From positions 1 through 22,201 of IMG/VR virus record IMGVR_UViG_3300030106_002981: 22,201 nucleotides of DNA; one strand, given 5' to 3'. Under the pieces are notes generated by a model, which had not been told where the DNA came from, made no database searches, and was given only the letters and a program-made list of their open reading frames with translations. This document shows, piece after piece, positions 1 to 22,201 of the stretch; within the stretch, counting starts at the first letter, position 1; each line of letters begins with the position of its first letter. Source of the stretch: a virus. Position numbers and translations under genes: made by a program.

Positions 1-2459
1 CGAAATACTAATTGTAAAGCAGTCATCTCTTCTGTAATATAATAATCTTGTGGTGCATTATTTGGTGAATTGTCTAATGCTCCAAATGAAATTGTTTTAT
101 ATCCCTCATCATCAATTTCACTTTCATTTAAGTAAGTCATCCAAGGACCTGGTAAAGTTCCTGTTTGAGCGTCTAAGAATGTAAGACCCGCTGGGCCTGT
201 TTTATATTTAATCTCAAACTCAAATGCTGCTACCTTAGTTAGTTCACCTGTCACCTCATCTGTATGTGGTTTAATGGTTAGTGGAACTACCACTTGATTA
301 CCCATTTGAACTTTAACACTTTCGTCATCAGGTAATAGTAATTCAACATCTGGTGTTGTTGATGTCTTACCAAGACTTCTATTGTTATCTATTGTTCTTG
401 CCCACTCATCTGGTGCGTCTCCATTACCCCAACGATAACTTGTTGTTCCGTTAATTGTTGGTGTTGTTGCTGTTCCATTTACATCTACTTTAACACCCGT
501 TAGGTTCATATCACCTGTAAAGTAATATGCTATATCTGAATCATTTGATGTATGAATAATATCTACTTGTTTATCAGAGTCATCTGTTTTAAATAAGTAA
601 TCTGGATTTACATCATTCATAGAACTCTCTGTATTGTCTGTCCAATCAGAACTACCTGCTCCTAATTGGATTAACAATGTATCTAATCCTGTTTCAACAT
701 CATCCATTAAAGGATTAAACCAAGCGACTTCACCAGCGTCTGATGTTAATTCTGCTGTTTCTTGTGCTAAGTCATCATCAACAAATATACTAAATTCTCT
801 TTTCTGTAAACTTGTTACACCATTTTGTGTTTGATAATAATTTAAAGTTTCATTATTTCCGTCATCTTTTAAATTATCAATACTTGCCCAAGACTGATAA
901 TCTTCTCCGTTTACGTGAGTATATTCTGTATCGAATACTCCTGATGAATATGCCCATATAAAGTATGCGTCATTTAATTGGAATACATCATCTCCGTCAA
1001 CATCACCAATTAAATAAGCACTTGGTGTTGCGATATCAATATCACCTGAGTTTTCAAACTTATTAGATTGGAAGTTAAATGCTGCTCTTGCGTCAACAAC
1101 ATTTGTAATATTATATCTGTCAAGTGTATATGGTGTGTGGTCTCCTGCATAATCATCTGCGTCTGGTGGCCAGAACGATACACGATATCTATTGTTTCGT
1201 GGTAAAGATATATTGAAATATCCTTTATCATCCGTGTGTGTCCAATCCCAATATGATACTCCTTCAAATCCATTAGCACCAACTTTTTGGTCTGATGTTC
1301 CACCTTGACTTTGGTCATCATAAGTGTAGTAATAATATCCTTCACTATCACTATTAGTTCCAATAACATCATCAGTAGTGGTTTCGTCCGTTAGACTTGA
1401 TTCGTCAGAAATTTCACGAACATTTAACCAATTAGAGAAAACTGTACCATCAAAATCAGTATTTGATTCATCTAACTCAAACAATACTTTCCAATATGCA
1501 TATTTGTTTCTTGAGTAGTCATTCGTTCCGTCATATTCTCCAATGTATCTCATATACCCTTCAACATCAACAAGTTTCGGGTGTAGAGTAATATCACCAC
1601 GAGCAGCTCCGTTGTTAGTTCTATCGTCTTCTGTGGTATTACCCCAATTACCATCTATGTAAACTTTATAAGGTAATAGATAATCGTCGGAAACATAAGT
1701 GTAATAACCTGAGCTTCCATCATAATGAGTAGCTACTCTAAATGATTTAGGTGCAAAGTCATCAGCCACATCATTTATTTTAAATTGTAATTTAACTAAT
1801 TGTTTTTGAACTCCATCACCACCACCAAAGTGTTTATCTGGCACTCCGTCATTATTGTCGTCGTGTCCGTGAGATACCATAGTAATTCTTAACCAATCGT
1901 ATCTATTATCTGATATTGACTCTTCTACTTGATTACCACTTACTGCTAATGAATCACGATAACCAACATTAGAAAAGTGAACCACTTCAAATGAGTAATC
2001 AGTTGTATCAGGATTTGCTGTGCTATCATCACCCTCATCCCAATTTATAATATGACTACCTTTAATTACTTTAGAATTACCTTGACTCCAAGCATTGACT
2101 GAAGTTTCGTCTGTGCCATCTGAATCTATATCTTGTTCTACCCAAGTGATTAAATCATTATCAAACGCAATGTCAAATCGAACTGCTGTAATGTAATTAG
2201 TGCCTGTATTATTATCATCTAATGTGACTTCTATCTCTAATAATTTATCTCTCCACGAATCAAAATTATTATTTTTATAAGCAGGTGTGGTTGAGTCTTC
2301 TGCTAAAAAAGTAGATAAATTTTGTGTAGTGCTATCTTTCCACCAAGTTTGTGGTGTATTCCAAGTTCCTATTTGTTTAACTCTTATAATTGGTGATTGT
2401 GCGAAAACTATTCCAAACATCACCGCTGTCATAACCATTTTCTTCATAAAATGAAACAT
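1..2459 (-). CDS. Large secreted protein with cohesin-like regions and a dockerin-like Ca-binding loop (3'-partial)
   Basis: An open frame runs uninterrupted from the ATG at 2459 to the left edge: 819 codons without a stop, so the C-terminus is missing. The start is supported by GGAG 7 nt upstream. Residues 1-20 look like a Sec signal peptide: two lysines, a hydrophobic stretch, and a likely cleavage after VFA (Ala20). Residues about 50-190 and about 710-819 have the strand pattern of cohesin-like beta-sandwiches (a V.AFEFEIKY-type strand, then a late ALQLVF strand). Residues 486-497 (GDVDGDD...ND) fit a dockerin/EF-hand calcium loop with Asp at positions 1, 3, 5 and 12; only one such loop is clear. 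The protein is rich in Asp, Asn, Thr and Tyr. It directly follows phage tail structural genes and has its own promoter-like motif upstream. The function is not known. It could be exported to the host envelope, decorate the virion, or be an acquired bacterial surface protein. The reading frame is certain; the domain calls are by eye. Confidence 0.85.
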   Translation of the reverse strand, partial: MFHFMKKMVMTAVMFGIVFAQSPIIRVKQIGTWNTPQTWWKDSTTQNLSTFLAEDSTTPAYKNNNFDSWRDKLLEIEVTLDDNNTGTNYITAVRFDIAFDNDLITWVEQDIDSDGTDETSVNAWSQGNSKVIKGSHIINWDEGDDSTANPDTTDYSFEVVHFSNVGYRDSLAVSGNQVEESISDNRYDWLRITMVSHGHDDNNDGVPDKHFGGGDGVQKQLVKLQFKINDVADDFAPKSFRVATHYDGSSGYYTYVSDDYLLPYKVYIDGNWGNTTEDDRTNNGAARGDITLHPKLVDVEGYMRYIGEYDGTNDYSRNKYAYWKVLFELDESNTDFDGTVFSNWLNVREISDESSLTDETTTDDVIGTNSDSEGYYYYTYDDQSQGGTSDQKVGANGFEGVSYWDWTHTDDKGYFNISLPRNNRYRVSFWPPDADDYAGDHTPYTLDRYNITNVVDARAAFNFQSNKFENSGDIDIATPSAYLIGDVDGDDVFQLNDAYFIWAYSSGVFDTEYTHVNGEDYQSWASIDNLKDDGNNETLNYYQTQNGVTSLQKREFSIFVDDDLAQETAELTSDAGEVAWFNPLMDDVETGLDTLLIQLGAGSSDWTDNTESSMNDVNPDYLFKTDDSDKQVDIIHTSNDSDIAYYFTGDMNLTGVKVDVNGTATTPTINGTTSYRWGNGDAPDEWARTIDNNRSLGKTSTTPDVELLLPDDESVKVQMGNQVVVPLTIKPHTDEVTGELTKVAAFEFEIKYKTGPAGLTFLDAQTGTLPGPWMTYLNESEIDDEGYKTISFGALDNSPNNAPQDYYITEEMTALQLVF

Positions 2460-10825: not shown

Positions 10826-11989
10826 TTATCTCACTACTCTAAATTCAAATTCATCATCATAAAAGTTAATCTGTTCATCAGTAGTTCCACTACCACTAAC
10901 GACTTTAATACAAAAACGATAATTTCTTTCTGCTTGTAATCCGTTCATCCACAAGTTGAAATAATTACCTGTTGTATCACAACTAATTTTTGAACCTGTT
11001 CCAAATGGAATTATTTCTTCCTCGGTATCAGCGTCTTTTACTTGATAGTATGCTGAAGCACTTGGTAAATATTTAACATTTAGTTCTGCAGGTGTAGTTG
11101 CAAATGCAGTTGTCGGATATAACTCTCTACCGACAATTCTAAATTTGACAATCGAACCTTCTTTATATTCTGTCCTTAAATTTTTAAAATAAACTTTTAA
11201 TCTTTCTAAATCCGTTGAACTCAATGGTGATAAACTTCCTGAATTCCAAGAACTATCGTCCCACATAACTTCCAATTTAGGTGGATAGATTGTATGTGTT
11301 TCTCTTGAAAAGTATTTTAGATTTCCTAATCTATCTGAACTTGCTTCGTCTTTTGTAGTATCACTTCCTGAATTAAATGCAAATGTATTATCAGTTGGAA
11401 GTATTGATTCTCTTTTTAAAATAAAGCCTCGATTCGGGTATTTAGATGATGAGTAAATATGATTCTTAACCATATCTGTTACATCTATTCTCAAATCTTT
11501 TTTATCAAATGTTAGTCCGTATGATGAACTTACTTCATACTGCCCATTCATACTTGCAGTAAACCAAGTTCCTCCGTCAGTCAATACTGAACCTGTAACC
11601 CAAGGTGTCTTGTTTTCGTGGTCACGATATTGATAACTTACTCCATCTTCTGTCGTAGGGTTATGGTCAAGTTTACCTGTTCCTTGTTTCCAATTACTAC
11701 CACTAACCATATATGCAAATACATTCTGTTCTGCCTCAACTTCTTCAGAAGTTGCGTCATATAAATTTAAATAGTAGTTTGCAGTTGAAGGTATTTTTCC
11801 ATCTTGAATAGATGAAGAAATGTAAGTGTAATCAAAGTCAATCAATACTCTTGATATATTTGCAATTGTTCCATCATTATTAACAACTTTTCTAATTTCT
11901 AATATTTCATCAAATCCAGTATTAATAGAAGCTGTTGTTCCACCTGAATAAATTGTTGCGTCTCTTTTTCCAAATTCAAAATAATGCAT
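10826..11989 (-). CDS. Virion structural protein, probable baseplate component with DNRLRE-like N-terminal region (387 aa)
   Basis: The N-terminal two thirds (KRDATIYSGG, then DEILEIRKV, then SRVLIDFDY, and later PPKLEVMWDD near residue 240) follow the order of blocks in DNRLRE-type beta-sandwich domains: a DATI opening, an L.[IV]-type strand, a SR.LI.FD strand and a final P.L.V strand. The C-terminal about 125 residues (VKFRIVGRELYP ... FRVVR) form a second beta-rich domain, possibly Ig-like. There are no catalytic residues that I can identify. It sits immediately after gp6 with a one-base TAATG overlap, the slot taken by gp7/gp8 wedge genes in T4-like phages. T4 gp8 is 334 residues, but I see no direct sequence similarity to it. 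A wedge or fibre-anchoring role is an inference from position. Confidence 0.7.
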   Translation of the reverse strand: MHYFEFGKRDATIYSGGTTASINTGFDEILEIRKVVNNDGTIANISRVLIDFDYTYISSSIQDGKIPSTANYYLNLYDATSEEVEAEQNVFAYMVSGSNWKQGTGKLDHNPTTEDGVSYQYRDHENKTPWVTGSVLTDGGTWFTASMNGQYEVSSSYGLTFDKKDLRIDVTDMVKNHIYSSSKYPNRGFILKRESILPTDNTFAFNSGSDTTKDEASSDRLGNLKYFSRETHTIYPPKLEVMWDDSSWNSGSLSPLSSTDLERLKVYFKNLRTEYKEGSIVKFRIVGRELYPTTAFATTPAELNVKYLPSASAYYQVKDADTEEEIIPFGTGSKISCDTTGNYFNLWMNGLQAERNYRFCIKVVSGSGTTDEQINFYDDEFEFRVVR

Positions 11990-13926
11990 TATAATTCTCC
12001 CACTACTCTACCCTCGATATCAGTATCGGGATATTTTAATTCAAATATACTTGGGTCTTTTGATGTATAAACAACTCCATTTCTTGTTGACATTTTGATA
12101 TCATAAACATTTCCACTATACCCACCAGATGTTGTAGCTTTATTCTCTACAATTATTAAATCATTATCTGGATTATTGTTAGGTGGTGGAACTACACTTG
12201 CTACACCATCCACTAATGATATTTGATATGCTATATCACTCAATACAATCGGTTGACCTATTTGCCATTTGTCTATATTGAAATGATTTCTAACTCTTTG
12301 AATACATTTAAACAATACATCATTGGCATTAAATCCTCTTTGTGTTACAATGGCAAACTTGATACCAATGTTAATCACATAAGCATTTTTTAAATTAATA
12401 GCGTCTGTTACTATTCTGTATTGTGATAAATACATTTTTAAATTTTGTTTTACTGCTTGATTTAAATTTGTTAATTTCTTACTTCCGTCATATCCTAATA
12501 AATACATATTTAATGCTAATGGATTAGAAATTTTTTCTGGCTCGTCTTGTTCATTCATTCTTAATTGTTCGTCTTGAACGATATATGCTTTTGCTATGTT
12601 TCCATATTTTTGTGGTAATGAATAAACTCTTGTGATGTAGTCTGCTTGTGTAACTGCCCTATTTTGTGCATTGAAATATGCTGCAGCATTTTCTTTTATC
12701 TCTGTTAATGTTTCTTGACTTGCACCACCTGATGCTGCCTCTGTATTTATTACACTTAAACTATTTTGAGCTGTTGAAACTTTATCTGAGTCTAAGCCAC
12801 TTGACGGTACGGTGAAAGTTATATCTTTTAGATATGTGATAGAATTACTTCTAACATTATGTTCTACTGCTCCACCATAACGATATGTAATCGTTAATGT
12901 TGTATTACTTGGTGCTAATCCAAATGTTCTTGTTTTCATAAAATTAGTTGGGTCAAATGCAGTATCTAAATGTGATACTCCAAAACTTAATGCCGAACCA
13001 ACATTATCTGGATTTGGAACTAATGTTTCATCTGCATTATCACTAACTCCTGCTCCAAATCTTAATTCCATTTTATTATCTTCACGAACATAAGTTGTAA
13101 ATCTTCTAGCTGTTTTAATTAGTTTTAATAAATATGGTGTGTCCATTGAGTGTTCAGAAAGTGTTGGGTCATTAAGACTCGTATTTTCTATTGATTCAAA
13201 TACTGTATCTTGTGCTAAAAAAGGAACTTCGTAATATTTGTTTCCATTACTATCAACTATCGATACAATTTCTGTAACTCTACTATTAGACAAAACAATC
13301 TTATCAAACTTTTTAGCTGATGAGAATGTAAAGTCTTCTGATGTAGTTGTTCCTGACTTTGCTAAAACTTTTTTTGTTACTCTATATGATGTTGGATTAC
13401 TTCCATTATCTGCTACTATCTCTACTTTCGTATTGTCTAATGAACTTGATGTTTTAAAATTAACATCATCCAATAATGTAAAATCTATTCCATTTTCTGA
13501 TGATACTATACCATTTGCAGAAACAACTCCTGCATAATCAAAGTCAGGAGAATATACTCCACTAATAACTTTTTCTGGCAAAGTTTGACTTAATTCTAAT
13601 TCAACCGTAGATGGAATAGCCAAACTTGGTTTGTATCCATATGCTTGAACTATATCAAAAATATTTTTCTTTTCTTCTGCGTGTTGTAATAGTGTTTCTT
13701 TAAATTGATTGTCAACATAATAATTTAATACATCACCAACATATGCTGCCATTTCAACAAACATCATACCTGGTGATGCTTCGTTAAAGTCATTATATGA
13801 ATTAGGGAAATAAGTTTTTGCGAACTCTATAAGGTTCTGTCTTATTGATGAGAAATCTCTACCAAGATAACTTACATCTTTTTTTACCATTTTTTTATTT
13901 GTTTGATAGTCTACATTTGTAGCCAT
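11989..13926 (-). CDS. 6: Baseplate wedge protein gp6-like (baseplate J family, 645 aa)
   Basis: Baseplate wedge subunit that forms the inner ring of the contractile-tail baseplate together with gp25 and gp7. The length (645 aa) is close to T4 gp6 (660 aa). The N-terminus has the expected block: a YLGRDFSSIRQNLIEFAK segment, then FNEASPGMMFVEMAAYVGD at about residues 47-65, and YYVDNQFKETLL. Residues about 410-445 carry the baseplate-J signature (AAYFNAQNRAVTQADY, then LPQKYGNIAKAY). The start is supported by AGGAG 6 nt upstream. The ATG is one base past the stop of the gp25 gene, and its own stop overlaps the next start (TAATG). High confidence in the family. Confidence 0.9.
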   Translation of the reverse strand: MATNVDYQTNKKMVKKDVSYLGRDFSSIRQNLIEFAKTYFPNSYNDFNEASPGMMFVEMAAYVGDVLNYYVDNQFKETLLQHAEEKKNIFDIVQAYGYKPSLAIPSTVELELSQTLPEKVISGVYSPDFDYAGVVSANGIVSSENGIDFTLLDDVNFKTSSSLDNTKVEIVADNGSNPTSYRVTKKVLAKSGTTTSEDFTFSSAKKFDKIVLSNSRVTEIVSIVDSNGNKYYEVPFLAQDTVFESIENTSLNDPTLSEHSMDTPYLLKLIKTARRFTTYVREDNKMELRFGAGVSDNADETLVPNPDNVGSALSFGVSHLDTAFDPTNFMKTRTFGLAPSNTTLTITYRYGGAVEHNVRSNSITYLKDITFTVPSSGLDSDKVSTAQNSLSVINTEAASGGASQETLTEIKENAAAYFNAQNRAVTQADYITRVYSLPQKYGNIAKAYIVQDEQLRMNEQDEPEKISNPLALNMYLLGYDGSKKLTNLNQAVKQNLKMYLSQYRIVTDAINLKNAYVINIGIKFAIVTQRGFNANDVLFKCIQRVRNHFNIDKWQIGQPIVLSDIAYQISLVDGVASVVPPPNNNPDNDLIIVENKATTSGGYSGNVYDIKMSTRNGVVYTSKDPSIFELKYPDTDIEGRVVGEL

Positions 13927-15899: not shown

Positions 15900-16288
15900 T
15901 AGTTTTCCTTATTGATTGTCGACAAGACTTCATCTTGTTTTGTTTGTAACTCTTGAACATCTGTTTCTATTGCATTCATCAATTGTTCTTTTTCTGCTTC
16001 TGATAAACCGAACTCATCTCCTGAATCCGATACTCGTTTTTCTGCTGCTGTAATTCTTTGAACGATTGTTGCTAACTTAACAAGTTGTTCATCGTTCTTA
16101 ACATTGATTTCTAAATACTCTTTTAACATAGGTATAATCTGAACGGCTGTATCTCCGTCTTTAATAAATCCTACAACCTCTTTCATCAATACTTCTAATT
16201 GTTGTTTGTTGGTTTTGGAATTATCATAGATGTCTTTGAAGACATCAGATAGGGTTTTACCCTCGAATATTTCGTAGTCATTTGCCAT
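15899..16288 (-). CDS. Conserved helical protein heading the baseplate operon (129 aa)
   Basis: All-helical, acidic protein: EIFEGKTLSDVFKDIYDN at about residues 6-23, then helices through residue 100 (KDGDTAVQIIPMLKEYLE, EQLVKLATIVQRI), and a C-terminal coiled-coil-like stretch. It resembles small conserved proteins next to the gp5-like gene in marine T4-like phages, but I know no assigned function. The first ATG has no clear Shine-Dalgarno sequence upstream (the leader is AT-only around CATACAAAATT), and an in-frame TAA lies six codons upstream, so no longer start is possible. Its stop overlaps the next start by one base. Confidence 0.75.
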   Translation of the reverse strand: MANDYEIFEGKTLSDVFKDIYDNSKTNKQQLEVLMKEVVGFIKDGDTAVQIIPMLKEYLEINVKNDEQLVKLATIVQRITAAEKRVSDSGDEFGLSEAEKEQLMNAIETDVQELQTKQDEVLSTINKEN

Positions 16289-16311
16289 AATTTTGTATGT
16301 AATTTATCTAA

Positions 16312-16325
16312 TAATAAATAGTAAG
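16312..16325 (-). promoter_or_regulatory. Candidate promoter/processing motif CTTA-C-TATTTATTA
   Basis: The minus strand reads CTTACTATTTATTA, ending 23 nt before the ATG at 16288. This is the third copy of the motif that also precedes the genes at 5649 and 2459. All three lie in non-coding gaps directly in front of a transcription unit. On the plus strand the same bases read TAATAAATA, so a plus-strand role toward the membrane gene at 16444 is an alternative. Confidence 0.4.
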
Positions 16326-16346
16326 TTGTTAAAAAATAGGGATATA

Positions 16347-16354
16347 TATTTATA
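16347..16354 (-). promoter_or_regulatory. T4-type late promoter box TATAAATA
   Basis: A perfect T4 late consensus on the minus strand, about 58 nt upstream of the ATG at 16288, in the only sizeable intergenic region. Transcription would start near 16340 and lead into the baseplate operon. The adjacent gp55 gene makes a late promoter here plausible. The octamer also occurs by chance elsewhere in this AT-rich window, so the call is moderate. Confidence 0.4.
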
Positions 16355-16396
16355 TACCACAAATTTTTTGTTAGATTTACATATAGTTATTATACG

Positions 16397-16418
16397 AGTT
16401 GGTGAAAACCAACTTTTT
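16397..16418 (+). promoter_or_regulatory. Leader hairpin with GAAA tetraloop and T-run upstream of the plus-strand gene
   Basis: AGTTGGT pairs with ACCAACT around a GAAA loop (7-bp stem), followed by TTTTATT. In the plus direction this has the form of a weak intrinsic terminator, placed about 25 nt before the ATG at 16444. It could attenuate or stabilise the leader of that gene. No plus-strand gene lies upstream that would need termination. Confidence 0.55.
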
Positions 16419-16443
16419 ATTCATTTTAAAAGGGGGAAACTAA

Positions 16444-16665
16444 ATGAAAGACACGGTCAAAATGATTATGGAAGCAGTAGGTGGAATTAAAGAAATGCTA
16501 CTTCATATAATCGGCTTAGGTGTTCTCGTTCAATTAATATTTGTAGGGGGATTCTTAGGTATGGACATTGTTGGTAATCTAATAGGTTTAGTAAATACTA
16601 TATCAAATGCAGGATTTGCTGGCTTTATATCACTATTGGTGATATTAGGATTACTTAACAAATAA
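16444..16665 (+). CDS. Small two-helix membrane protein on the opposite strand (73 aa)
   Basis: The only convincing plus-strand gene in the window. It begins with a short amphipathic N-terminus (KDTVKMIMEAVGGIKEM), then has two hydrophobic segments at about residues 20-40 (LHIIGLGVLVQLIFVGG) and about 55-71 (GFAGFISLLVILGLL). A strong AAGGGGGAA ribosome binding site lies before the ATG. A terminator hairpin follows 13 nt after the stop, and a second hairpin lies in its leader, so it is a separate small transcription unit. Topology and size would fit a holin-like or other membrane-active phage protein, but I see no family motif and no adjacent lysis gene, so no function is assigned. Confidence 0.8.
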   Translation: MKDTVKMIMEAVGGIKEMLLHIIGLGVLVQLIFVGGFLGMDIVGNLIGLVNTISNAGFAGFISLLVILGLLNK

Positions 16666-16677
16666 AGGTGGAATTAC

Positions 16678-16705
16678 AAGGGCAGTAGAAATACTGCCCT
16701 TTGTT
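16678..16705 (+). terminator. Intrinsic terminator after the small membrane-protein gene
   Basis: AAGGGCAGTA pairs perfectly with TACTGCCCTT around a GAAA tetraloop (10-bp stem), followed by TGTT. It lies between the convergent stops of the plus-strand gene (16665) and the gp55-like gene (16713). On the minus strand it is followed by a less T-rich stretch, so it may terminate both directions but works best on the plus strand. Confidence 0.85.
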
Positions 16706-16712
16706 ACATCTG

Positions 16713-17438
16713 TTATAAATTATCCCAACTACCTGTCCATTTAGTTTCAATAGAACCAGTAGTTAAATAATTATGTTGTAGATTGGTATGATGTTTTTTC
16801 ATCACATTGACAACACGAGTAATGTGTTGGGTATTTGAATCTGTCATTTCTCTAATCAAAATATACAATGCTTTCTTATTAAAGTTTTCTATATTCTGTC
16901 TATTTTCCATAAGATATAATACTGCATTAGCAACATCCATATCTTGTTTTCTTTTAAATACGGTAGTTAAGTTATTTGTCCAATACTCTACAAATAAGTC
17001 AACATACTCTTTTTTTGCTTGAACTAAATCTGCTCTTGATGCTTCAGTCATTGGGTCTCGTTTATAATCTGTAACCTCATCACTATCAGTTTGTTTCATC
17101 TTTTTATAATTGTTGTTGTTGTGTAGAATCAAATAGTTCTTTGCAACAATACTAAAATAACTAAATGCCTTACCTTTACCTTCAGTAAATTTATGCATAT
17201 TCATATACAAGAAACTAACTACCTCGTGCATTACATCAACACTTGGAACATCAAAGTAATAAAACTTAAATGTATGGATAATGTTTTCTGCCAACTTTTC
17301 AAAAGGTTGTCTGATGTGTTCATTGTAAATTCGTTCTCTCATATGTGGACGAGTTTCTTTATTGTGTCTAATGATTGCGTCTTCTGTTCCTTGATGAAAG
17401 TAATATCTTGGTGAACCCTTTTTTGCTTTTCTTGGCAT
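16713..17438 (-). CDS. 55: Late-transcription sigma factor, gp55-like (241 aa)
   Basis: Directs host RNA polymerase to phage late promoters. Residues about 40-115 form a sigma region 2-like helical core: RERIYNEHIRQPFEKLAENI, then FLYMNMHKF, then GKGKAFSYFSIVAKNYLI, a block typical of gp55 and the -10-recognising helix. T4 gp55 is 185 aa, so this one is longer; the extra length is mostly C-terminal. The last residues (KWTGSWDNL) are hydrophobic and acidic and could be a sliding-clamp contact, as in T4 gp55, which is an inference. The N-terminus is basic (PRKAKKG). The gene ends the right-hand operon and overlaps the membrane-protein gene by one base (TAATG). Confidence 0.85.
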   Translation of the reverse strand: MPRKAKKGSPRYYFHQGTEDAIIRHNKETRPHMRERIYNEHIRQPFEKLAENIIHTFKFYYFDVPSVDVMHEVVSFLYMNMHKFTEGKGKAFSYFSIVAKNYLILHNNNNYKKMKQTDSDEVTDYKRDPMTEASRADLVQAKKEYVDLFVEYWTNNLTTVFKRKQDMDVANAVLYLMENRQNIENFNKKALYILIREMTDSNTQHITRVVNVMKKHHTNLQHNYLTTGSIETKWTGSWDNL

Positions 17439-17692
17439 TATAACTCCTCTTGTGTTATTTCGTTTAGTTCGTCTATTGCTTCTTTAATTGATGTAAATAT
17501 GACACCGACTTCATCGTCTGCTTCAAAGTCTCCTTTACTATCAATCTCTTTTAATACTCGTTGAGTATCGATTATTCTTTGTGCATAATCCTCCACCCAA
17601 GTTTCTAATCTTTCAACTTTTCTTGTAAGGTTAAATATAACATAACCTTCAACTAAAGTCAAGAGAATAAATAAAATTAAAAAATAAATCAT
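17438..17692 (-). CDS. Small membrane-anchored coiled-coil protein (84 aa)
   Basis: Residues 2-22 form one hydrophobic transmembrane segment (IYFLILFILLTLVEGYVIF). Residues about 24-84 are acidic and helical (LTRKVERLETWVEDYAQRI, later SIKEAIDELNEI), consistent with a coiled coil. It could anchor something to the inner membrane. The gene overlaps the HD-domain gene by 4 nt (ATGA) and the gp55 gene by one base. No specific function can be named. Confidence 0.75.
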   Translation of the reverse strand: MIYFLILFILLTLVEGYVIFNLTRKVERLETWVEDYAQRIIDTQRVLKEIDSKGDFEADDEVGVIFTSIKEAIDELNEITQEEL

Positions 17693-18474
17693 TTCTTTGC
17701 CTCCCCAAATAGTTCATTAAATATATCCTTAGCGTCTGTTGATTTAGTGTTGAACTTTTCTTTTACTTCCGTATCAACTGCTTTCTTGATTTTGTTAACT
17801 GATTGTTCAACTTTTTTTGACTCAATCTTATCTCCTCGTTTCCATTGGTCTGATTCAATATGAGTTGCCATCATATCTGCTTGGTGTAAGATGTAAGCAA
17901 TATTACTTCTCAATTCCCATTGTGGATTGAATCCTTTGTAATACTTTTCGTTTGCTTCTTCATATAGTCCGTCTGTCAATCTCAATCCAATAAATTCCCA
18001 CTCCGTCATTGGTATTTGAAAGTGTCCTAATATCCAAAAAGACCTATCTGACACGGTCATATATTGTAGTTCTGGATTGTGTTTATAAACACTACCTTGA
18101 TTCTTTCTATGCCAATCACTTTCTTCTGGAACATAATAGTCATTTTCTAAATCACCTATTTTACCTAAGTCGTGATGTAGAGCTGCAAACACTAATTCTT
18201 CATTTGTAAAATTAATTGTTGCTCCATTTTGTTCCCACATATCTCTTACTTGTTGTGAAAATTTTACCACGTGTAATATGTGTTCTACATATCCACCCAC
18301 CATAGCATTATGATAATGTTCTCTACCACTTGCTGGCGCCATACACATTCTATCTTCAAAGTAATCATACATCTGATTAAGATTTTCTAATCTATCTCCA
18401 CTAAATGTATTATTGATAATTGTTCGTAAGTCTTTCCAATTATCTGTTATTTGTTGTTCTGTTAATTGCTTCAT
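17689..18474 (-). CDS. HD-domain phosphohydrolase (261 aa)
   Basis: Metal-dependent phosphohydrolase of the HD superfamily. The metal-binding set is visible: H65 (GYVEHILHVV), the doublet H101-D102 (AALHHDLGKIGD) and D200 (ILHQADMMATHI). Further histidines at 132 and 151 lie in the region that often completes the active site. A C-terminal lysine-rich tail of about 40 residues follows. HD enzymes act on nucleotides, cyclic nucleotides or nucleic acids; the substrate cannot be read from sequence. It sits between the GT-B gene and the small membrane protein, overlapping both by 4 nt (ATGA). In this operon a role in nucleotide metabolism or DNA modification is possible but only inferred. Confidence 0.85.
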   Translation of the reverse strand: MKQLTEQQITDNWKDLRTIINNTFSGDRLENLNQMYDYFEDRMCMAPASGREHYHNAMVGGYVEHILHVVKFSQQVRDMWEQNGATINFTNEELVFAALHHDLGKIGDLENDYYVPEESDWHRKNQGSVYKHNPELQYMTVSDRSFWILGHFQIPMTEWEFIGLRLTDGLYEEANEKYYKGFNPQWELRSNIAYILHQADMMATHIESDQWKRGDKIESKKVEQSVNKIKKAVDTEVKEKFNTKSTDAKDIFNELFGEAKK

Positions 18475-19805
18475 TTATTTATAACCTCGTATCTATCTTT
18501 TGTTAATTTAATATCTTTTTCATTTCTCAATCTATTTCTATATGAACTAAACTTGACTCTTACTCCCCAACCACCCATATGTTCTAATATGTCATTTTTA
18601 GTTACGGACTTTTTATCTTTGATAAATTTTACAATTTTATCATATGAATCAGTTTTTTTAACTGACCTTAAATTGTCTATAGCGTCTTGAAATACATCAT
18701 TAATTTTTAATATTTGTTTGTCCCATTTACTATCTTTAAATCTCTGTAATGATTTTTTTGAATACTCATTTCTAAATTCTTTATCATCTAATGCTTTGTT
18801 CATCAGTTCAAGAAAATCATCTGAATCTTTATAATATATTCCTGCTTCATCTGCTAACTCGTGATAACTTCCGTCATCTGAAAACATATAAGGAACTCCA
18901 ACTGACATTCCGTCCGTAGCAGAAACTGCCCAACCCTCATACTTTTGTTTACAACAAACACCAACCTTACAAGAAGATAGTTTAGAAAAATAACCAAATC
19001 TATCATACTTATCGATTGTGATATATTCTTTTTCTTTGGATTCTGCTAATGGAACCCATACTTCAAAGTCTTGTCTTTGTCCCCAAAGTTTATCCATTTG
19101 TTCTAAGAACCAAGGATAGTTTTTATATGTGTGTGGTCTATGATTATAAACAATTATATTTTTATCGGTTGTTTGTTTTTCATAGTTTGGTGTTTCCCAA
19201 CCAAGATAATGTGGTTCAAGTATTTCATCTAATTGTTTAACAATATCATCATTGAAATACTCTTTAGCATTTTTCAATACAAGCTGCTTTTGTGCATTTG
19301 TATTGATACCACATTTTTGTTGTTGTAGTAAACCTACAATATTAAATGCTAAACCAACTTGATAATGATAATTAGTTATTTCTTTAAACTCAGTCCAATG
19401 AGTATATCCTAAAAATGTTGGTTCTATATTTGTTGTATTACAAAGTAGATTCTTTAACTGACCAGTGTGTTCTGGCAAATGACTATATACAATATCATAA
19501 TCATTGTGTTTCCAATTGATTGCTTTGAAAACTTCTTTGAATGGAAATGACATTCTCATAGAATTAGGATAAGATACTTGTGGAACAATTAATTGTTCAG
19601 TATTATCAAACTCTAAACTTGGTATAAGTTCTGGTGATAATATTGTCCAATGTAAATCAGTCCTTATCTTGTTCATTTCTTTAATGATGTTTCCAAGCAC
19701 GACAACATAACTATCCTTTTCTAAATCCTTTTGGAAAGTTATATTTGGATATACGAGTATTTTATACTTGTATTCTTTATCGTCTTGTGTTTCAAATCTA
19801 AACAT
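18471..19805 (-). CDS. GT-B glycosyltransferase with C-terminal winged-helix-like domain (444 aa)
   Basis: Predicted retaining-type GT-B glycosyltransferase (GT4-like). Residues about 10-200 form the N-terminal Rossmann-like domain (YKILVYPNITF, DYDIVYSHLPEH). Residues about 215-350 form the donor domain: IIVYNHRPHTYKNYP, then GYFSKLSSCKVGVC, then YEGWAVSATDGMSVGVPYM. The family E-x7-E motif appears as E290-x7-D298, so the second acid is Asp rather than Glu. The last 60 residues (YDKIVKFIKDK, VTKNDILEHMGGWGVRVKFS, then LTKDRYEVI) look like a winged helix, a DNA-binding fold, so DNA could be the acceptor. It overlaps the DUF262-HNH gene by 8 nt and the HD gene by 4 nt. GT-B fold confidence is good; DNA as target is a hypothesis. 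Confidence 0.82.
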   Translation of the reverse strand: MFRFETQDDKEYKYKILVYPNITFQKDLEKDSYVVVLGNIIKEMNKIRTDLHWTILSPELIPSLEFDNTEQLIVPQVSYPNSMRMSFPFKEVFKAINWKHNDYDIVYSHLPEHTGQLKNLLCNTTNIEPTFLGYTHWTEFKEITNYHYQVGLAFNIVGLLQQQKCGINTNAQKQLVLKNAKEYFNDDIVKQLDEILEPHYLGWETPNYEKQTTDKNIIVYNHRPHTYKNYPWFLEQMDKLWGQRQDFEVWVPLAESKEKEYITIDKYDRFGYFSKLSSCKVGVCCKQKYEGWAVSATDGMSVGVPYMFSDDGSYHELADEAGIYYKDSDDFLELMNKALDDKEFRNEYSKKSLQRFKDSKWDKQILKINDVFQDAIDNLRSVKKTDSYDKIVKFIKDKKSVTKNDILEHMGGWGVRVKFSSYRNRLRNEKDIKLTKDRYEVINK

Positions 19806-21453
19806 TAAGTATGAAATCCTTTGAAATAATAAAACCTGCTCTCATTCTAAACTCTTGAGTGATTGGTAATCCAATTTTTTCTAATTCTTTTAGAAACTCT
19901 GATGGGGATTTATTACTTTTCATATTGTTTAGTTTTGAAGAAGTGACTACTAAGTTTTTATATTCAGTAACTCCACCTCTATTGATACCCCAATTTCTTG
20001 GTATGAAGTGGTCTCCTGCAGCGTCTTTTCTACTTAGTGGTTCGCCAGTATAATAACAAGTATCTTTTTGTTCAATCAGTTTATTATCAATGTCAGTAGA
20101 ACTAAATGTTTCTCTACTATCTATTTCCAATACACCAAATGATTCTTCGTCTAAATTTAATTCATAATCTAAAACATATACTTGTGATTTAATTATAGAA
20201 TTTAGACCACCAAACAATAACTTGAATTGTCCTAACTCTCTCTTTTCTTTGGCTGGCTTATTCTCATCTCTAGCGTCAAAGTGTCCAATATATTTTTGTT
20301 TAGATGTATCACTCCACTCACGATATATTTCCCAAAATTTCTTGACATAAACTTCCTTGTCTAATTTTCCATACTTGGTTTTTAGCTCCCAACCATATAA
20401 GAACATCAAGTATGCTACATTTTTAGTCATTCTTTCTTTATCATTACCTCGAACGAAACTAACTAATCCTAAACAAAAGTCTGTAAAGTCTTCTATTATT
20501 TTTTTCTCTTTGTTCCATACTCCTTTGTCTGAAAATTTCCCACCAGACCTTTGTGTATCTTTAATCCAATTTGTCAAAGCATCATTTGATACTCCACTCT
20601 GATACCCTTTAAAAAGTCCATAAATTAGTTGTGAGTAAAACTCATCAACTTCCATTCTACCATTTAAATTAAAATTAGGAAAGTATTCTAATAATTGTTT
20701 TTCATTAGATTTATTTAAATTTTTAATCTTACGATTAAACAAGTCGTGAGTTTCAAACCTTGAGTTATCTCTGATATGTTTTGATAAAAACCCTCTAACA
20801 GCGTTTCTAATTTCTTGTGCTTTCATACCATTAGTATTGTTTAGAACTTCAACAAATAGTTCTGAAGTTATTTCATCACTAAGGTTTTCATACCAAGTAT
20901 TTTTGATTTTATAATTCATCAATTCTTTATATAGATTAGGAGCTTTCTTTCTCAAATCATCAACATTAAATTTACTACAATCTTGACTACCTACCATAAA
21001 GTTATCTGGCAATTTAAATTCACCTTTTAGAAATCCAATGATAGCTGCCCTACTTCTTTGTTGTCCATCTATTATTTCAAATGAAACAAGTCCTTCTTCT
21101 ACTTTAACTCTTATGTGGATTTCTGGAATACCTGAATAATCTCTTGTTAATATAGTTTCTAATATCCCTTGTTTCCATTTCAACTTGGCGACTTTCTCTC
21201 TTTGATATTCTCTTGCGCCAGTTTCTAATTCACGATTGTTATAAGAATCCCACAACCATTGAACTAAAATTTCTCCTGAAGTTGAATTCATATCTACTCT
21301 ATCTACATCTGCAAATACTCTGTTTGCTTTTTCACAAGGGATAAAGTCATCTATTGTTAGAAATGTAATATCTTCACAATTATGTTCTGTTTCAAAAACT
21401 TCCTCGAAATTTCCGTTTTCATCTAATACATAAAGTTTTGTTTTTTCACTCAT
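19798..21453 (-). CDS. DUF262 (GmrSD/ParB-like) protein with C-terminal HNH nuclease domain (551 aa)
   Basis: Two-domain protein. Residues about 75-145 carry the DUF262/ParB-like signature: AREYQREKVAKLKWKQGILE, then IDGQQRSRAAIIGF, with DGQQR at 129-133, the nucleotide-binding and NTPase motif of this family. The C-terminal domain is HNH-like: C466-YYTG, then AAGDHFIPR with D481-H482, N500 (KNLVVTSSKLNN), and NMKSNKSP at 510-517. GmrSD-type enzymes restrict DNA with glycosylated cytosines, so the architecture fits nuclease activity on modified or foreign DNA. The ATG overlaps the upstream glycosyltransferase stop (ATGA) after GGAG. Base use is like its neighbours, so no sign of recent transfer. 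Whether it cuts DNA here is not known. Confidence 0.85.
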   Translation of the reverse strand: MSEKTKLYVLDENGNFEEVFETEHNCEDITFLTIDDFIPCEKANRVFADVDRVDMNSTSGEILVQWLWDSYNNRELETGAREYQREKVAKLKWKQGILETILTRDYSGIPEIHIRVKVEEGLVSFEIIDGQQRSRAAIIGFLKGEFKLPDNFMVGSQDCSKFNVDDLRKKAPNLYKELMNYKIKNTWYENLSDEITSELFVEVLNNTNGMKAQEIRNAVRGFLSKHIRDNSRFETHDLFNRKIKNLNKSNEKQLLEYFPNFNLNGRMEVDEFYSQLIYGLFKGYQSGVSNDALTNWIKDTQRSGGKFSDKGVWNKEKKIIEDFTDFCLGLVSFVRGNDKERMTKNVAYLMFLYGWELKTKYGKLDKEVYVKKFWEIYREWSDTSKQKYIGHFDARDENKPAKEKRELGQFKLLFGGLNSIIKSQVYVLDYELNLDEESFGVLEIDSRETFSSTDIDNKLIEQKDTCYYTGEPLSRKDAAGDHFIPRNWGINRGGVTEYKNLVVTSSKLNNMKSNKSPSEFLKELEKIGLPITQEFRMRAGFIISKDFILNV

Positions 21454-22201
21454 TTAAACTCCTCTAATTTATTTATATACTTTGAACTATTATATGCTTC
21501 TTTAAATCTATGTTTAAATACATCTATAACTCCATAATTCTTTATTTCTATTTTCTTTTTTATGTAAGTATAAGGTTTGTATCTTGGGTTATTCATCAAT
21601 TTGATATTTTCCTCATAATGAACTTGTGGGCTTCTAATGTTCTCTAACCCACCCTCGTTTGTCCACATTGAACCAAATATATCACATACAAACTCATCTG
21701 AAATTCTATTTTTAAATCCTCTAAGTAAACATTCCAAATTAAGAATACTATCTTCTGCCACCTTGACAAATTTCCAATCTACTTCATCTTTCCACTTACT
21801 AAGTTCTTCACCATTTATAAAATGTGCGCCTGATACATACTGAAATTCGTGATAAAATTTTTCTGAAGGTATTAGATTAGAATCTCTACAACCTACATGC
21901 ATTAATCCTTCATCCATCCAACCATTGAACAACTCAAACATATCGTCCCAATCAGATGATGATAGTGGTCGTTTTGAGCGTTCCATATTAGATTCTACCT
22001 TCATATACTTTCTATTTCTTCTATAAAAAGTTATATCATCATCAACCATTAGATATCTTTTTTTACTAGCGTGATTGTATATTTGTTCTCTTGTTGCTGC
22101 AATACCAATATCATTACCTACTATCAAATATTCAACATCATAATCATACTCATCTTTTTCTTGTTCTTGAACCACCATAATAACTTTCTTTTTATACTTA
22201 T
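21450..22201 (-). CDS. GT-A glycosyltransferase, TET-associated (TAGT)-like (5'-partial)
   Basis: GT-A type glycosyltransferase. YLMVDDDITFYRR carries the D-D-D (DxD-like) metal/nucleotide-sugar motif; before it, GNDIGIAATREQIYNHAS is the usual helix. Downstream, FQYVSGAHFINGEEL and the acidic AEDSILNLECLLRGF match the order seen in this fold. Similar enzymes (TAGT) glycosylate modified bases in phage DNA. An ATG at 22178 could start the protein, but the frame stays open to the window edge and the upstream codons give KYKKKVI, which with MVVQEQE forms the first beta-strand of the fold. The true start is therefore most likely beyond the window and the gene is 5'-partial. The specific TAGT assignment is a recognition, not a search. 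Confidence 0.72.
   Translation of the reverse strand, partial: KYKKKVIMVVQEQEKDEYDYDVEYLIVGNDIGIAATREQIYNHASKKRYLMVDDDITFYRRNRKYMKVESNMERSKRPLSSSDWDDMFELFNGWMDEGLMHVGCRDSNLIPSEKFYHEFQYVSGAHFINGEELSKWKDEVDWKFVKVAEDSILNLECLLRGFKNRISDEFVCDIFGSMWTNEGGLENIRSPQVHYEENIKLMNNPRYKPYTYIKKKIEIKNYGVIDVFKHRFKEAYNSSKYINKLEEFK

Follow-up and report, generated by a model that had tools for sequence, protein, structure and literature searches.

The window analyzed here is a complete IMG/VR record of 22,201 bases, a marine-phage contig whose right end is the contig edge. Minus-strand ORFs are tightly packed between 16713 and 22201, and the adjoining ORFs at the right end of the window overlap by 4, 8, 4, and 4 nt, in agreement with the 4- to 8-nt overlaps given in the initial annotation. 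The GT-A, DUF262-HNH, GT-B, and HD genes named there proved to be real, as judged by their ORFs and profile matches. However, the view that these genes and a "gp55" form a single cotranslated cassette could not be maintained, since the HD and gp55-like genes belong to the phage backbone, GT-A and DUF262-HNH are cargo, and GT-B is a core gene.

The HD-domain phosphohydrolase (17689 to 18474, minus strand) is a conserved backbone gene and not cargo; it matches PF01966 at 19.3 bits, just under the cut-off, and phrog_28876 at 7.6e-14, and a 41% identical protein occurs in phage immuto. It had been thought to run directly into "gp55," but an ORF of 84 aa (17438 to 17692, minus strand), also backbone and kept in the relatives, intervenes. 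The "gp55" itself, a protein of 241 aa (16713 to 17438, minus strand), is 84 to 94% identical in the relatives and 45% identical in immuto; neither Pfam nor PHROGs returned a convincing family match, be it to the T4 gp55 late sigma factor or to another family, and it is best described as a conserved backbone protein. Since the same order of HD gene, small gene, and gp55-like gene, a conserved phage backbone, is found in Flavobacterium phage immuto without any glycosyltransferase, all of these lie outside the cassette, and the HD and gp55-like genes were ruled out as parts of it. The late-promoter motif TATAAATA occurs at 5 sites, compared with 4.4 expected by chance.

The gene at the right edge (21450 to 22199, minus strand) encodes a TAGT-like GT-A glycosyltransferase, the 5' end of which is lost beyond the contig edge. 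Because the window is the complete record of 22,201 bases and the gene reaches the contig end, the protein lacks its N terminus, with approximately 25 amino acids missing relative to its 57% identical counterpart in locus L166. Against TAGT PF20691 (cut-off, 27.5), the truncated protein attains 26.1 bits, and the complete 270-aa relative in L166 reaches 39.6 bits, above the cut-off. Furthermore, the window protein matches phrog_842, the T4-type alpha-glucosyltransferase family, with an E value of 1.3e-8, and the DDD motif read from its translation (VDDDI; 22035 to 22043, minus strand) is conserved in L166 and L186. A tblastn search of cultured phages with GT-A gave nothing useful.

The adjoining cargo gene (19798 to 21453, minus strand) encodes a DUF262 (GmrSD_N, ParB/Srx-type) protein with an HNH nuclease domain, as assigned by GmrSD_N and HNH_4 profiles and an 8-member alignment. 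In this alignment, the DGQQR motif of the DUF262 domain (21055 to 21069, minus strand) is invariant, as are Y468, GDH480-482, N500, N509, and K512 of the HNH region (CYYTG...GDH...EYKN...N..K; 19918 to 20058, minus strand), which also gave weak profile matches to solved HNH and Cas9 HNH domains. The window protein scores 22.2 bits against GmrSD_N (PF03235), under the cut-off of 33.2, and the family member of L303 scores 33.8 bits, over it. The C terminus matches HNH_4 instead of DUF1524 (PF07510), for which no match was obtained at an E value of 0.1; single-protein scans with the window DUF262 gave nothing useful. The substrate of the known GmrSD enzymes is modified, not unmodified, DNA.

The core gene of the operon (18471 to 19805, minus strand) encodes a GT4-like GT-B, which matches Glycos_transf_1 at 32.5 bits (cut-off, 26.4). 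Its AF2 model, with a pLDDT of 90, matches 7qsg with a Z score of 28.3 and an rmsd of 3.3 over 340 residues, the nearest solved folds belonging to GT4 enzymes that serve the metabolism of small molecules, lipids, and polysaccharides. GT-B enzymes of the GT4 type act mostly on small molecules, lipids, or surface glycans, and the fold by itself does not single out an acceptor; both points weigh against a reading of this gene as DNA modifying. At the C terminus, a helix-helix-helix-strand-strand arrangement is predicted with high pLDDT and aligned in 31 relatives, corresponding to a winged-helix-like tail (18474 to 18668, minus strand), for which sequence searches returned no meaningful match and no solved relative. 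By tblastn, no cultured phages carry GT-B.

Relatives were recovered only via the baseplate gene and alignments. Across approximately 250 related loci, GT-B is a core gene whose fixed partner is DruA (PF14236), and the two form a conserved pair: DruA is present at 37 of the 40 GT-B loci having enough upstream sequence and lies above the curated PF14236 cut-off in 19 of 22 contigs. The partner gene of the relatives scores 95.2 bits against PF14236 (cut-off, 27; E = 5e-27) and matches the PADLOC DruA at 7.6e-25. From these relatives, we infer that the DruA of the window should be located just beyond its edge. Neighbor conservation, which the initial annotation had named as a test, is thus strong for GT-B and DruA, and the fixed partner is DruA instead of a TET enzyme or hydroxymethylase, for which the initial annotation had proposed to look. 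A hydroxymethylase route found no support, a thymidylate synthase (TS)/dCMP-hydroxymethylase homolog being present in 0 of 22 related contigs (incomplete, three of approximately 95 kb; control good); the TET/JBP search gave 0 of 22 contigs, with its controls silent too.

The DruA model presents a GNAT fold, whose best solved match is phage Mu Mom (8bv8; Z score, 10.0; other GNATs, at most 8.9). By sequence, DruA was ruled out as a Mom family member (hhalign probability, 0.13), the likeness being one of fold only. In cyanophages and pelagiphages, the surroundings of DruA are replication or late-gene loci that lack both GT-B and comparable nuclease cargo, and therefore the DruA/nuclease/GT-B triad is not general to phage DruA. 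A ParB_N-DruA fusion occurs in L249.

We defined the cargo slot as the interval from the DruA stop codon to the GT-B start codon, which forms its right border; the part visible in the window (19798 to 22201, minus strand) holds GT-A and DUF262-HNH, between the predicted off-edge DruA and GT-B. Slot content differs in 41 of the 46 close pairs (GT-B at least 80% identical), compared with 0 to 2 for nearly all other junctions, and the interval is an exchange hot spot for nucleases and/or nucleic-acid-modifying enzymes. For instance, L156 and L163 hold unrelated cargo between flanks whose DNA identity is 98.0% across the 3,914 bp ending at the DruA stop and 96.1% across the 9,691 bp that begin with GT-B codon 3. 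Where the slot is empty (L119, L123, L145, L160, and L215), DruA and GT-B overlap by 1 or 4 nt.

The cargo is made up of enzymes of DNA conflict, and its types comprise DUF262-HNH (GmrSD_N+HNH) proteins, ParB-like nucleases, Mom (8e-40; cargo c9 scores 137.1 bits against Mom PF25680, cut-off 27.1), methyltransferases (D12, 3e-26; N6_N4_Mtase, 8e-57), ResIII helicase, GHKL ATPases, extra glycosyltransferases, and a GIY-YIG type matching the homing endonuclease family phrog_314; families c21, c200, c193, and c79 have no recognizable domain. Cargo genes are nearly always codirectional (2 minus-strand genes in 42 slots) and often coupled via TAATG/ATGA overlaps. Some slots hold Mom, methyltransferases, or glycosyltransferases without a nuclease, and often a modifier is paired with one: GT-A and DUF262 in the window, a glycosyltransferase and DUF262 in L246 and L089, GT-A and a ParB nuclease in L166, a PLOD-type glycosyltransferase and HNH in L159, Mom and DUF262-HNH in L133, and a methyltransferase and HNH-helicase in L168. 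The closest relative of the window, L246 (GT-B 93% identical), presents the order DruA, glycosyltransferase, DUF262-HNH (53.6% identical), and GT-B. GT-A is one among approximately 29 interchangeable cargo families, with only GT-B being core, and the earlier idea of a fixed set for two successive glycosylations is not supported. In L109, a 200-aa neighbor of the D12 methyltransferase, taken by eye for a type II nuclease, was rejected, having no library support.

The same family of DUF262-HNH proteins recurs in other lineages of phages, where it lies between DruA/Mom and GT-B, adjoining DNA polymerase and clamp genes. Counted from DUF262-HNH, GT-B follows downstream at a distance of at most 2 genes in 26 of 38 loci, and the upstream side carries DruA or Mom in 24 of 37; PolB occurs at 22 of the loci; in L279, Mom (4e-43 and 2e-42; 147.9 and 145.8 bits against PF25680), DruA (1e-22), and PolB (1.5e-35) are all recognized. 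The DruA/Mom, DNA polymerase B, and clamp neighbors favor the link to DNA modification, with an accompanying nuclease, that the initial annotation had drawn, but not the fixed double glycosylation included in it.

The locus is most likely a phage DNA-hypermodification operon (GNAT plus glycosyltransferase) with an exchangeable restriction-like nuclease; in this reading, the kind of modification, the acceptor of the sugar, and what the nuclease cuts are all inferred. The best explanation, to which we give an even chance, is a modular operon of DruA, cargo, and GT-B that modifies phage DNA and carries a swappable, modification-sparing nuclease. DruA, with its Mom-like GNAT fold, and GT-B would modify the phage's own DNA, e.g., by adding an acyl-type group and, at the same time or afterward, a sugar. 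Through NTP binding (DGQQR) and HNH cleavage, the cargo nuclease would attack DNA lacking the proper modification, such as the host chromosome or the DNA of competing phages, and the phage DNA would escape owing to its own modification. Where the nuclease needs it, matching protection may come from the additional modifiers that the slot holds (GT-A, a second glycosyltransferase, Mom, and methyltransferases), and cargo could be exchanged through homologous recombination in the conserved flanks. Against this explanation stand the sub-cut-off GmrSD_N score of the window protein, the lack of a hydroxymethylase in the 22 contigs, the empty state of some slots, the cargo families that have no recognizable domain, the cutting of modified DNA by known GmrSD enzymes, the location of DruA outside the window, the lack of GT-B in cultured phages, and the absence of sequence-profile similarity between DruA and Mom. 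More tentatively, DruA and GT-B might carry out a new two-step hypermodification (GNAT-added group plus sugar) without a hydroxymethylated base, serving as the shared protection of an open restriction-modification platform whose nucleases, with or without their own modifier, are exchanged via one stop/start junction.

DUF262-HNH could also be a modification-dependent type IV (GmrSD-like) enzyme against the hypermodified DNA of competitors, to which the GNAT, GT-B, and GT-A marks of its own phage would be invisible. The combination of GmrSD_N, DGQQR, and HNH corresponds to the type IV architecture (PMC4619093, PMC12373910), and rapid cargo turnover suits phage-phage conflict; however, the protein accompanies GNAT/Mom and glycosyltransferase genes across lineages, as a self-protected restriction partner would, and the best-known target, glucosyl-hmC, requires a hydroxymethylase, none being found in the relatives (22 contigs), so that we consider this reading rather unlikely. 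DUF262 has stayed linked to DruA/Mom and GT-B over the long term, and this, together with the ParB_N-DruA fusion, would fit ParB/DUF262 proteins that act within the modification pathway itself (by NTP-dependent selection of sites, by opening or nicking DNA locally, or by regulation) and are not nucleases against other DNA; such a role has been proposed for DndB, which is part of a modification system and belongs to the ParB superfamily (PMC10853773). We regard this as unlikely, given that the slot may also be empty or hold unrelated nucleases, methyltransferases, or GHKL ATPases, and therefore no single step is required, and that the HNH residues are invariant.

It is very improbable that the cargo consists of selfish, homing-endonuclease-like elements sharing one insertion site by chance: although HNH and GIY-YIG are typical homing nucleases and the GIY-YIG cargo matches phrog_314, the genes occupy one and the same stop-to-start interval, with the orientation and coupling described above, and include Mom, methyltransferases, and glycosyltransferases without a nuclease. 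We give the least credence to a glycosylation of host surface structures or proteins by GT-B and GT-A (receptor change, superinfection exclusion) with an incidental nuclease neighborhood. The GT4 enzymes nearest to GT-B in fold would suit such a function, whereas the winged-helix-like tail of GT-B, its placement in other lineages, where DruA/Mom lie on one side and DNA polymerase/clamp genes on the other, and the likeness of GT-A to TAGT and T4 alpha-glucosyltransferase argue against it.

Returning to the modular operon with a modification-sparing nuclease, a comparable arrangement is seen in the Mom-nuclease modules of jumbo phages (Iyer et al. 2021, PMC7824862), which have been proposed to keep the phage's own DNA safe from a nuclease directed at the DNA of the host or of superinfecting phages. 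The likeness lies in a GNAT-superfamily DNA acyltransferase, putative in our case, paired with an endonuclease; there, however, Mom and a REase-fold domain form one fused protein, whereas here a fixed DruA and GT-B accompany a separate, exchangeable nuclease of many families. The T4 glucosyl-hmC system (alpha/beta-glucosyltransferases; PMC13216743) likewise features protective phage DNA glycosyltransferases, to whose family (phrog_842) GT-A is related, but here no dCMP-hydroxymethylase/TS homolog was found in 22 relatives, and a GNAT enzyme would replace the base-priming enzyme. GmrSD/BrxU type IV enzymes (PMC4619093, PMC12373910) share DUF262 with DGQQR and a C-terminal HNH; different from these, the window protein is phage encoded, inside a probable modification operon, with a weak profile score and no DUF1524 match. 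As for Druantia, the DruA domain (DUF4338) is over Pfam and PADLOC thresholds, but it lies in a phage operon with GT-B in place of DruBCDE; a full Druantia system was ruled out, the DruE-type C-terminal domain PF09369 being found in 0 of 22 fragmentary contigs (control positive in 8 genomes). GT-A resembles the TAGT sequence family (PF20691), whose cut-off its complete relative in L166 passes, but is optional cargo here, and no adjoining TET enzyme was seen in a search whose controls were silent. Defense-system hot spots of phages and satellites hold alternative conflict systems at one genomic site. Here, in contrast, the site is a stop/start junction within a probable modification operon of two genes, and the phages are tailed and have T4-like baseplate genes.

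The four neighboring genes would thus be recast as a platform with a fixed modification pair and a plug-in nuclease slot. This gives DruA, a Druantia component, a testable function in phages; if true, this bacterial defense component would be a Mom-like DNA modification enzyme. The proposal predicts an undescribed DNA modification made without a hydroxymethylase, and the natural modifier-nuclease sets may become a resource for new restriction specificities.

The window, which comprises an IMG/VR record in full (22,201 bases), ends on the minus strand with genes whose successive overlaps are 4, 8, 4, 4 and 1 nt: a TAGT/phrog_842-family glycosyltransferase lacking its start (GT-A, 21450 to the edge), a DUF262-HNH protein (19798-21453; GmrSD_N and HNH_4, both below cut-off), a second glycosyltransferase (GT-B, 18471-19805; Glycos_transf_1 above cut-off), an HD hydrolase (17689-18474; HD/phrog_28876), an 84-aa protein (17438-17692) and a 241-aa protein (16713-17438), called gp55 in the initial annotation, for which profile searches gave no convincing family match. 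That annotation, which had read the four larger upstream genes as a co-translated cassette preceding a late sigma factor, was largely right in its observation and half right in its interpretation; the motifs it named were found in the window proteins and are conserved among relatives. The predicted model of GT-B (pLDDT 90) presents a GT-B fold resembling that of GT4 enzymes (Z scores as high as 28), followed by a C-terminal tail whose predicted elements occur in winged-helix order.

Close relatives of the cassette proteins were absent from the cultured phages searched. The baseplate protein (11989-13926) has 107 relatives among viral contigs, 80 of which were kept, and a 40% match in Flavobacterium phage immuto; the GT-B and gp55-like alignments, used as queries, yielded about 160 further loci. 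Because immuto keeps the order HD, small gene and gp55-like (the latter 45% identical) with no adjoining glycosyltransferase, these three genes belong to the conserved backbone, and HD and "gp55" had to be removed from the proposed cassette. At the opposite end of the window (3-2459, minus strand), an 819-aa protein cut by the contig end shows a signal-peptide-like start and a dockerin-like DVDGD...N stretch, and a Pfam search with it returned no match.

Upstream of GT-B, the relatives encode a protein of 380 to 400 aa (cluster c0) identified as DruA (PF14236, 95 bits versus a cut-off of 27), which also matches PADLOC DruA. Of 22 contigs, 19 carry it with a score above cut-off and the rest are edge fragments; it is present in 37 of the 40 GT-B loci having enough upstream sequence. 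The closest relative of the window, L246 (GT-B and HD each 93% identical; a 10-base N gap from a scaffold join lies within its GT-B at 1857-1866), has the order DruA, GT, DUF262-HNH, GT-B and HD, and locus L166 the order DruA, GT-A, ParB-like nuclease, GT-B and HD. The window ends short of the expected position, and from these two gene orders it is therefore very likely that DruA lies beyond its right edge. The predicted DruA model (pLDDT 87) presents a GNAT fold, the class to which its family, DUF4338, had previously been assigned (PMC10853773). Among solved structures, phage Mu Mom (8bv8) resembles the model most closely (Z 10.0, rmsd 4.0 over 181 residues), with the other GNATs at Z 8.9 or lower; despite this likeness in fold, the sequence-profile comparison of DruA with Mom gave no match. 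The phage group also conserves a strongly matching RimK-type ATP-grasp protein (PF08443, E 8e-51), encoded several genes ahead of DruA (L092:5795-6685, L113:5802-6692).

The finding grows once GT-B is set apart from the cargo: DruA and GT-B form a fixed pair enclosing an exchange slot with sharp limits, running from the stop codon of the former to the start codon of the latter, of which no description was found in the literature searched, whose coverage of older work is incomplete. Across 42 dereplicated loci, the cargo falls into 29 families, and six slots are empty, these keeping a DruA/GT-B stop/start overlap of 1 or 4 nt. The gene content of the slot differs in 41 of 46 close pairs (GT-B at least 80% identical), with 0 to 2 pairs differing at the adjoining junctions (3D-domain protein/DruA, GT-B/HD, HD/small gene, small gene/gp55-like and others). 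In 31 of the 36 close pairs with filled slots the cargo falls below 30% identity x coverage, its similarity being undetectable in 23, and DruA and HD average 76 to 95% and 84 to 93%, respectively. The borders are sharp: in L156 and L163, unrelated cargo separates two conserved flanks, one with 98.0% identity over the 3,914 bp that lead up to the DruA stop and one with 96.1% identity over the 9,691 bp from GT-B codon 3 onward, and four further pairs show the same pattern. A second, weaker variable site is the junction of the gp55-like and gp53-like genes (window approximately 16288-16713), at which 11 of 37 close pairs differ.

The cargo includes Mom (E 8e-40), GmrSD-like DUF262-HNH proteins, ParB-like proteins (one with profile support; in some, the alignment shows a D...E-x-K pattern at the end), GIY-YIG/homing-type N-termini (phrog_314), D12 and N6_N4 methyltransferases, ResIII helicase, GHKL ATPases and extra glycosyltransferases of the TAGT, PLOD and GT-B types. 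A modifier and a nuclease often co-occur, namely, GT-A with DUF262-HNH in the window, a GT with DUF262-HNH in L246 and L089, GT-A with a ParB-like nuclease in L166, a PLOD-type GT with an HNH protein in L159, Mom with DUF262-HNH in L133 and a methyltransferase with HNH/helicase in L168.

Gene identities, order, exchange and fold being observed, we infer substrate, chemistry and target, for which the best reading is that DruA and GT-B would modify the phage's own DNA, that the cargo nuclease would cut DNA without the mark and that extra modifiers in the slot would widen the protection. Since no thymidylate synthase/hydroxymethylase homologue was found in the 22 contigs, all incomplete, the sugar acceptor would be other than the classical hydroxymethyl group. 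A Mom-nuclease proposal has been published for jumbo phages (PMC7824862), a precedent for the concept but not for the set of DruA, GT-B and cargo. Alternatively, the cargo nuclease, GmrSD-like in several loci, might mount a type IV-like attack on the modified DNA of competitors, or the cargo, some of which carries homing-type N-termini, might consist of selfish homing elements.

Two other alternatives are that ParB/DUF262 might act within the modification pathway and that the glycosyltransferases might serve surface glycosylation. The DUF262-HNH family is present in other phage groups: 26 of 38 loci have GT-B at most two genes downstream of it, and 24 of 37 have DruA or Mom on its upstream side. 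L279 has the order Mom, Mom, DruA, DUF262-HNH, GT-B, DNA polymerase B and clamp-like protein, confirmed by Pfam, but with DUF262, GT-B and clamp scoring below cut-off; L138-type contigs carry DruA and GT-B directly before DNA polymerase B, and cyanophage DruA sits among clamp-loader genes. Moreover, a contig of a Pacearchaeota bin (L249:1800-3608) encodes a 603-aa ParB_N-DruA fusion (DruA 76 bits; ParB_N 23.6 bits, just below cut-off). Together, these neighborhoods and the fusion tie DruA, ParB/DUF262 and GT-B to DNA. In Synechococcus phage S-SCSM2R (L256, PQ898602), the DruA-family protein of the clamp-loader region is annotated "methylcarbamoylase mom," and about 25 Synechococcus phage records contain such a protein.

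In the phages of the group without DruA and GT-B, the position next to HD is taken by a 450- to 550-aa protein (cluster c5), with a TSPPY methyltransferase-like motif read by eye and no match in a Pfam search; it seems to be a different modification module that uses that site. It occurs in 9 of 17 GT-B-less loci with enough sequence, none of these nine having DruA; its carriers are L010, L018, L079, L169, L184-L188, L226, L234 and L235. In L079, an aspartyl/asparaginyl hydroxylase-type protein (PF05118) is added to c5, and in L265-L273 and L274-L276 GT-A directly precedes HD without GT-B, beside cluster c105 or c5.
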